From: a virus
Reading direction: 5' to 3' (one strand)
DNA: 43,535 nucleotides
IMG/VR virus record: IMGVR_UViG_3300031565_000096
Location: 1-43,535 of that record
In this document: piece by piece, positions 31,324 to 34,459 of the stretch
Layout: every line of letters starts with the position of its first letter
Position numbering within the stretch: position 1 is the first letter of the stretch
Notes under the pieces: model-generated
Database searches by the model: none
The model's input: only the letters and a program-made list of their open reading frames with translations
Told to the model about the DNA's origin: nothing
Made by a program: the position numbers and the translations under genes

Positions 31324-31398
31324 TGGTCTGCGAGGTAGGATTTGAACCTACGATCCCTTGGTTCCAAACCAAGTACGATACCGCTTCGCCACTCGCAG
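31324..31398 (-). tRNA. tRNA-Pro(UGG)
   Basis: The minus strand folds into a full cloverleaf. The acceptor stem is CTGCGAG/CTCGCAG. The D-stem is GCGA/TCGT. The anticodon stem CTTGG/CCAAG has loop TTTGGAA, giving anticodon TGG. The variable loop is five bases. The T-arm is GTAGG-TTCAAAT-CCTAC, and A73 plus an encoded CCA complete the 3' end. The first pair C1-G72 and A73 are the known bacterial proline identity elements, supporting function. It reads codon CCA (and probably other CCN). It lies just upstream of the late operon on the same strand. Confidence 0.95.
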
Positions 31399-32690: not shown

Positions 32691-33119
32691 ATGAGAAAAC
32701 CAAATTATAAACAAAGAACAATTAATAACATAAAATCGGGAGTCTATAATTTCCAAGAATTAAAGAAACAACATGCGCAACTTGCCGAATTATCACTATT
32801 TGAAAGCGCCGCCGATAGAACAGTTTATTATATTAATCAAGAAATATTTGTTAATAATATAAATTTATTCCTAGAAAATAACAAGTCTTGGGCGCTTGAC
32901 ATGACCAAAGCTGATTTGCTGATTATGTTGTGCATATGTTCAAGTTTTCGGCCAATTCAGCCTTTTCAATTGTTAACCGACATTGCAATTCAATGCGCTA
33001 AAATAGAAATCGGCGTTAAACCTGATGACATTGTCGAAGTAGCCACAAAACAAGGCAAGCTTAAGATTATCGCAGTTAATGGCCTTGGCGCACAGGAAAT
33101 GATTATGGTGAAGTCATGA
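32691..33119 (+). CDS. Hypothetical early protein, 142 aa
   Basis: The protein is basic at the start (MRKPNYKQRTINNIKSGVYN), helical through the middle (ADLLIMLCICSSFRPIQPFQ) and ends with short strands (KLKIIAVNGLGAQEMIMVKS). No signal peptide or catalytic motif is visible. It is coupled to the GP88 gene by an ATGA overlap, so the two products may act together. Family not recognised. Confidence 0.6.
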   Translation: MRKPNYKQRTINNIKSGVYNFQELKKQHAQLAELSLFESAADRTVYYINQEIFVNNINLFLENNKSWALDMTKADLLIMLCICSSFRPIQPFQLLTDIAIQCAKIEIGVKPDDIVEVATKQGKLKIIAVNGLGAQEMIMVKS

Positions 33120-33757
33120 TTCAATCTAAGCGTAAATTATTACAAAAAGGAAATTCCAAATTATCCAAGGATGGAATTTATTCATGGAGTCTACCGGCTG
33201 TTAAGTCGTGTCCTATGGCGGGAACTTGTAAAATTGGTTGCTATGCCACGCAAGGGACATTTAATTTTCCTAACGTGAAAAAGGCCTATGCGCTTAATTT
33301 TGCGTTGGCGAAAAATCATGATCGATTTTATAATTCAATGCAAAAAGAAATAAGCAAATTAAAGCATAAATCAATCATTAGAATACACGCAAGCGGCGAC
33401 TTTTTTAATAAGAGTTATTTTTATAATTGGTATTCACTAGCTAATGATTTCCCCAATGTTCAATTTTACGCTTATTCCAAGATGGTATTAATGATTAAAG
33501 AATTTAAACAAGATCTTATAATGCTAGGCAAACATTGGCCGGATAATCTAACAATAATATTCAGCGAGGGCGGCAAACAGGATAGCATGATATCGGAGAA
33601 TAATGATAGACATGCGCGAGTTTTCAACTCAATAAGTGAATTGAAAAAAGCCGGCTATGCCAATGTAACGGAACACGATATCGGCGCAATGGGCAATAAT
33701 CATAAAATCGGATTAGTCTATCATGGCGCGGAGTCTAAGAAGTGGAGCACACAATGA
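33116..33757 (+). CDS. GP88-family protein
   Basis: The 213-residue product matches the phage Gene product 88 family in its three-cysteine motif C32-x5-C38-x3-C42-Y (CPMAGTCKIGCYATQG), a following Asn/Ala-rich helix, and the RIHASGDFF (89-97) and YNWYSLANDFPNVQFYAYSK segments. The Cys cluster could bind an iron-sulfur centre or zinc, and the layout is reminiscent of radical-SAM-type folds, but the reaction is not known. It is widespread in phages and here sits in an early operon. ATGA overlaps couple it to genes on both sides. Confidence 0.8.
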   Translation: MIQSKRKLLQKGNSKLSKDGIYSWSLPAVKSCPMAGTCKIGCYATQGTFNFPNVKKAYALNFALAKNHDRFYNSMQKEISKLKHKSIIRIHASGDFFNKSYFYNWYSLANDFPNVQFYAYSKMVLMIKEFKQDLIMLGKHWPDNLTIIFSEGGKQDSMISENNDRHARVFNSISELKKAGYANVTEHDIGAMGNNHKIGLVYHGAESKKWSTQ

Positions 33758-33960
33758 GTTTTTTTAATCAAAACGCGAAAGAACACTCAAACGATATTCT
33801 AGCAATGGTCAAACATCATTGCGAATTATCCGAGCGAGCACAAAAGCAATTGATTGAGTATTTTGAAATAAAAATTGACTTGATTGTCATGCAAGCCCAG
33901 ATAAGAGAGTCAAACGAAAACCACAAACGCACAATGGCATTATTGAAAGGAAATAATTAA
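33754..33960 (+). CDS. Hypothetical early protein, 68 aa
   Basis: The start is ATG 33754, overlapping the GP88 stop as ATGA. The product begins MSFFNQNAKEHSNDILAMVK and continues as a charged helix (IEYFEIKIDLIVMQAQIRES). It may form a coiled coil. Tight coupling to the GP88 gene suggests a possible partner, but there is no direct evidence. Confidence 0.6.
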   Translation: MSFFNQNAKEHSNDILAMVKHHCELSERAQKQLIEYFEIKIDLIVMQAQIRESNENHKRTMALLKGNN

Positions 33961-33961
33961 C

Positions 33962-34459
33962 ATGGAAAATAATAACATTACACCATCACAAATAAACTAT
34001 TTTGAGCTATTCAATAATATTGTACGTGATCATATGGTCAACAATAAGCTAGCGCCGCTAGTGCAACCAAAGTCACTCGATGAATGGTTTCAGCGCGTGG
34101 GTGTGTTAGATGCTTGTCAATTGACTCATTTAACAGGCCTTGATTTTCATGAATTAGACATTGACGGTGACGGCGCGATTGATGCTAATGACGACGACCT
34201 GGAGTCATTGACAAAATTCTGTGAAGAGAATGAAATCTATCATATAGCGACGAGGTCATACGACGATGACGATAAGGACATTCTTTACACTAACGAAGTG
34301 CAAAATATTAACAGGTCAAAGTATTATCTGTGCAATGGCAGCAAATTAAGATTAACCTATGATAATTACGAAGAGTCATATGAACCCGACGAGGACTGCG
34401 AAAAGGAAAATTACCTTGAGCGCATGATGGAGACCATGGAATCACGGGAGGATAGATAA
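33962..34459 (+). CDS. EF-hand-loop (dockerin-like) protein, 165 aa
   Basis: AAGGAA precedes ATG 33962. Residues 66-77 (DIDGDGAIDAND) form a textbook 12-residue EF-hand calcium loop, with D66, D68, D70, G71, I73, D74 and D77 in the expected places. The preceding segment (DEWFQRVGVLDACQLTHLTG) could be the entering helix. The rest is acidic (SYDDDDKDIL, ESYEPDEDCEKEN). Only one loop is clear. Calcium binding is well supported by motif; the cellular role is unknown. It is unusual in an early phage operon. Confidence 0.7.
   Translation: MENNNITPSQINYFELFNNIVRDHMVNNKLAPLVQPKSLDEWFQRVGVLDACQLTHLTGLDFHELDIDGDGAIDANDDDLESLTKFCEENEIYHIATRSYDDDDKDILYTNEVQNINRSKYYLCNGSKLRLTYDNYEESYEPDEDCEKENYLERMMETMESREDR

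Follow-up and report, generated by a model that had tools for sequence, protein, structure and literature searches.

A phage GP88-family protein with an invariant three-cysteine motif and a predicted radical-SAM-like fold

Introduction

Spore photoproduct lyase, a radical-SAM enzyme of DNA repair, carries the canonical C-x3-C-x2-C motif together with an essential fourth cysteine, and three-cysteine motifs other than the canonical one have been reported to support radical-SAM chemistry (PMC3742179). In another enzyme of the superfamily, SkfB, the cluster and S-adenosylmethionine (SAM) are held by the cysteine motif, a GGE motif and a serine of the ribose motif (PMC6231123). Members of the GP88 family ('Gene product 88', Pfam PF17338) occur commonly in phages and archaeal viruses and in the plasmids and genomes of Actinobacteria, and the libraries that we searched record no function for them. 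Our literature search returned no paper naming PF17338 or the DUF5131 family, with 'GP88' in papers denoting progranulin or unrelated gene numbers, and yielded no function for GP88 from work on TcmP and three-Cys-motif proteins. Here we describe a GP88 protein from a viral genome record and argue, from its sequence relatives and predicted structure, that it is probably a minimal stand-alone radical-SAM-type enzyme of a GP88/DUF5131 group.

The GP88 gene and its surroundings

The window, the whole stretch of DNA analysed here, comprises 43,535 nucleotides of a virus record (43.5 kb; IMG/VR IMGVR_UViG_3300031565_000096). Genes for replication and recombination lie near GP88 and encode a Prim-Pol primase, a Sak4-like protein, an SSB-like protein, a helicase and a YqaJ exonuclease. 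The features discussed below are as follows.

32691–33119, plus strand: 142-aa orphan ORF upstream of GP88; ATGA overlap with GP88; homologue search empty
33116–33757, plus strand: GP88-family protein, 213 aa; Pfam match and predicted radical-SAM-like partial barrel
33209–33244, plus strand: C32-x5-C38-x3-C42-Y43 motif, codons 32–43; putative [4Fe-4S] site, from conservation in relatives and a place on the loop that follows strand 1 in the model
33380–33406, plus strand: RIHASGDFF, codons 89–97; end of strand 2 in the model, the likely counterpart of the GGE-motif place of radical-SAM enzymes
33754–33960, plus strand: 68-aa ORF downstream of GP88; ATGA overlap with GP88; homologue search empty
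33962–34459, plus strand: 165-aa ORF in the same run as GP88; no family assigned

The 213-aa ORF is clearly a GP88-family protein by its Pfam match, which has an E-value of 3.8e-41 (a score of 141.9 bits, where the cut-off is 24.4) and covers most of the model (positions 2–211 of 230). Both segments by which an earlier, sequence-only reading had recognized the family, C-x5-C-x3-CY and RIHASGDFF, were found, as C32-PMAGT-C38-KIG-C42-Y43 and R89-IHASGDFF, and the protein contains three cysteines in total. That reading had also placed the gene between two ATGA overlaps, which the coordinates confirm at 33116–33119 with the 142-aa ORF and at 33754–33757 with the 68-aa ORF; many other 4-base overlaps occur elsewhere in the window, and the remaining genes of the run are spaced by 1–2 bases. 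The early expression that this reading proposed for GP88 is a prediction from gene position; a promoter scan of the window found 25 candidates against 17.8 ± 3.9 expected, little above background. A tRNA-Pro (TGG) gene lies at 31324–31398 (minus strand) in the long intergenic stretch that precedes the run, and the 165-aa ORF (33962–34459, plus strand) has a single EF-hand-like loop (DIDGDGAIDAND) with a Pfam score under the cut-off.

Residue conservation and relation to DUF5131

We drew GP88 relatives from IMG/VR, GTDB genomes, phages and plasmids; the window protein is about 25–46% identical to those found. Of 147 distinct relatives, 146 have C32, 146 have C38 and 145 have C42, with R89, G94, D95, N144 and S150 fixed about as strongly across these sequences. 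No member of the 88-sequence alignment (A3) lacks any of the three cysteines, and the C-x5-C-x3-C spacing is kept by 97 of 104 classified relatives. Conservation of the cysteines is, on these alignments, not due to chance. The residues typical of the family (C..C..CYA, RIHxSGDF, FYAYTK, N, S, GG and D) are present in the window protein, which differs from the usual GP88 protein in having S121 in place of T and A92 in place of D and keeps the remaining strongly conserved residues. Two mycobacteriophage and two spring-water phage members (L008:4013-4654, L009:1401-2048, L010:1994-2701 and L011:1621-2328) carry an additional C-terminal C..C-x2-C-x2-C cluster, possibly a second Fe–S site, which the window protein lacks.

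When the 88 GP88 members were scanned one by one, 14 matched DUF5131 (Gp37/Gp68, PF07505; best E-value 9.9e-4) and 10 matched DUF7227, with every other family matched by two members at most. In the reverse direction a DUF5131 protein matched PF17338 with an E-value of 2.9e-5 and 24.5 bits, just above the cut-off, and profile–profile comparison of GP88 with DUF5131 gave a modest E-value of 0.0035 over 165 columns, the best of 18 decoys reaching 0.0079 over 29 columns. A joint alignment has C, C, C, Y, A, D95, T121, K122, N144, S150 and F170 near-invariant in both families, and most residues fixed in the two lie where strands 1 to 4 of the model described below end. DUF5131 proteins share with GP88 the distance from first to third cysteine, followed by Tyr-Ala, an Asp at strand 2, T-K at strand 3, and N and S around strand 4; unlike GP88, they have the spacing C-x6-C-x2-C and an extra GGESGP segment. 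The window protein itself does not match the PF07505 model. On alignment and profile evidence, GP88 is thus related to the DUF5131 family, of which the window protein is not a member. The relation to DUF7227 (PF23872) is weak and covers the N-terminal half, the window protein scoring 17.3 bits, below that family's cut-off of 27.

Searching PDB sequences with the GP88 family profile gave chance matches only, and GP88, the 142-aa gene and the primase, each run as a single-sequence query against viral contigs, gave no matches. None of the PADLOC anti-phage defence models matched the window protein, with two stray weak matches among the 88 members. An identity as DpdA/7-deazaguanine transglycosylase was considered and set aside, having neither Pfam nor structural support.

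Predicted fold and structural matches

An AlphaFold2 model of the window protein, built on the 88-sequence alignment, has a mean pLDDT of 91.2 and a pTM of 0.88, with six strands alternating with helices. We built a second model for an actinobacterial member of about 32% identity to the window protein, using its own alignment, and both predicted structures contain the partial (β/α)6 barrel of radical-SAM enzymes, at structural-alignment Z-scores under 8. In the model of the window protein, the cysteine loop lies between strand 1 (residues 21–24) and the first long helix, so that it directly follows strand 1 of a predicted partial β/α barrel, as in the radical-SAM layout. Rather than a fold with no metal site, which would have spoken against the earlier suggestion of an iron–sulfur centre, the prediction has the three invariant cysteines at the place that the cluster occupies in radical-SAM enzymes, judged from model position.

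When the window model was compared with the PDB using VIA-align 2, every one of the 15 best entries was a radical-SAM enzyme. Spore photoproduct lyase came first (Z 7.5, 166 residues, 3.8 Å), followed by QueE (6.3), queuine lyase (6.0), RlmN (6.0), NifB and a sactipeptide enzyme; unrelated barrels in the list had Z-scores of 4.7 or less. The actinobacterial model likewise ranked spore photoproduct lyase first (Z 6.4) and viperin second, with unrelated barrels after them, and the top radical-SAM matches of the two models aligned 160–183 residues. Z-scores below 8 are middling, and the tool warns that they can reflect a common arrangement; the structural case therefore draws its weight from the concordance between two models, from the leading ranks being filled by one superfamily and from the position of the cysteines. 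Among predicted viral structures, those resembling the GP88 model were GP88 proteins and one Gp37/Gp68-like protein.

The GP88 models share with spore photoproduct lyase a partial barrel and a tri-cysteine site, which holds a [4Fe-4S] cluster in the lyase. They differ from it in sequence (8–12% identity) and in the longer chain of the lyase (338–340 residues in its solved structures), the Pfam SPL family matches neither the window protein nor any of the 88 members, and the fourth cysteine is absent from the window protein. The canonical C-x3-C-x2-C spacing is likewise absent from GP88, none of the 88 members matches Pfam Radical_SAM (PF04055), and profile–profile comparison with a radical-SAM profile was not significant (E-value 0.1). 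Given the reports of other three-cysteine motifs, the unusual C-x5-C-x3-C spacing lowers the case for membership without excluding it. The earlier hint that the cysteines hold an iron–sulfur centre of a radical enzyme is thus supported at the level of predicted fold and motif, but not by canonical spacing or a Pfam Radical_SAM match; on this evidence the cysteine cluster is a putative Fe–S site of a radical-SAM-type enzyme.

Proposed mechanism

We infer a [4Fe-4S] cluster, SAM binding and radical chemistry for GP88. The cluster would be held by Cys32, Cys38 and Cys42, in the loop that follows strand 1 of the six-stranded partial barrel, and its open iron would bind SAM. The SAM pocket would be formed by Asp95 at the end of strand 2, Ser/Thr121-Lys122 at the end of strand 3, Ser150 at the end of strand 4, and Arg165; from strand order, D95 would take the GGE position and S150 the ribose position of radical-SAM enzymes. 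One-electron reduction would then split SAM, and the resulting 5'-deoxyadenosyl radical would attack the substrate. GP88 would act as a single enzyme that does not depend on forming a complex with the neighbouring gene products.

Alternative readings

The unusual spacing, together with the missing Pfam Radical_SAM match and the weak profile similarity to radical-SAM enzymes, would also fit a barrel derived from that superfamily in which the cysteines hold zinc or a structural cluster and the protein binds nucleic acid or protein without radical chemistry. We consider this unlikely, as GP88 and DUF5131 share, besides the cysteines, fixed polar residues where strands 2–4 end, as expected of a catalytic pocket, and the top structural matches are radical-SAM enzymes with catalytic activity. 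Less probable still is an unrelated barrel or Rossmann-type enzyme, such as a class I SAM methyltransferase, with no more than a similar arrangement in common with radical-SAM enzymes. VIA-align Z-scores under 8 leave room for this, and Foldseek alone, with no PDB match to the window model at an E-value of 0.001 or better, places class I methyltransferases in its first rows (E-values 0.02–0.1); the comparison with radical-SAM folds that the sequence-only reading had proposed agrees in fold and top matches for two models, without significance in Foldseek for the window model. These methyltransferase matches have TM-scores of 0.19–0.29 and rmsd values mostly of 7–13 Å, and no class I methyltransferase is among the 50 VIA-align matches listed, so we rejected that identity. 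Both models rank radical-SAM entries first over long alignments, and an invariant tri-cysteine loop after strand 1 would have no role in such a fold.

The ATGA overlaps on both sides of GP88 permit translational coupling, and the earlier reading had suggested from them a complex of GP88 with the 142-aa and 68-aa products, alongside a modification of host targets. We now regard such a complex as highly improbable. Neither neighbour has a detectable homologue beside GP88 in 80 related viral loci or anywhere in the phage collection searched, nor does the 142-aa protein in viral contigs; 4-base overlaps are common in the window, and of 79 viral relatives only 13 have one at the GP88 stop codon. 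The ATGA overlaps resemble the usual close packing of phage genes, and the two genes, judged by homologue searches, are not a conserved part of a GP88 system and are not supported as members of a complex. The main reservation is that fast-evolving small partners could be missed, since the relatives are at most 46% identical.

Occurrence and possible substrate

Across viral GP88 loci, no single neighbour recurs widely or indicates a substrate, the surrounding genes being ordinary phage genes (terminase, DUF932, ParB-like, recombination). GP88 lies beside thyX, polA and SSB genes in cyanophage S-EIVl, among capsid genes in Streptomyces phage Gilgamesh, and among small genes close to one genome end in mycobacteriophages. 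A GP88 relative is also present in 44 plasmid records. In 27 of 80 actinobacterial loci (L110:3004-8406 and 26 others, including L099, L100 and L103), GP88 belongs to a conjugation operon, flanked on one side by a VirB4-type gene and on the other by a gene for a T4SS coupling protein.

The closest structural match is a DNA-repair enzyme, and GP88 adjoins replication genes in some phages and sits in actinobacterial operons for conjugative DNA transfer. On these grounds we tentatively suggest a nucleic-acid substrate, probably the mobile element's own DNA, while regarding this as a guess that may well prove wrong. A broader and more speculative proposal, which we would not favour as it stands, is that GP88 and DUF5131 together make up an uncharacterised clade of minimal radical-SAM enzymes whose cysteine spacing departs from the canonical one, in which GP88, mainly on mobile elements (tailed phages, archaeal viruses and actinobacterial conjugative elements), might chemically modify or repair incoming mobile-element DNA.

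Implications

If GP88 is a radical-SAM enzyme, as we think probable, it would add to the superfamily a very small stand-alone domain with unusual cysteine spacing. The assignment makes the protein directly and cheaply testable, through its cluster and its cleavage of SAM, and for this family of phages, archaeal viruses and actinobacterial elements it would justify a search for modified nucleosides or proteins during phage infection and conjugation.
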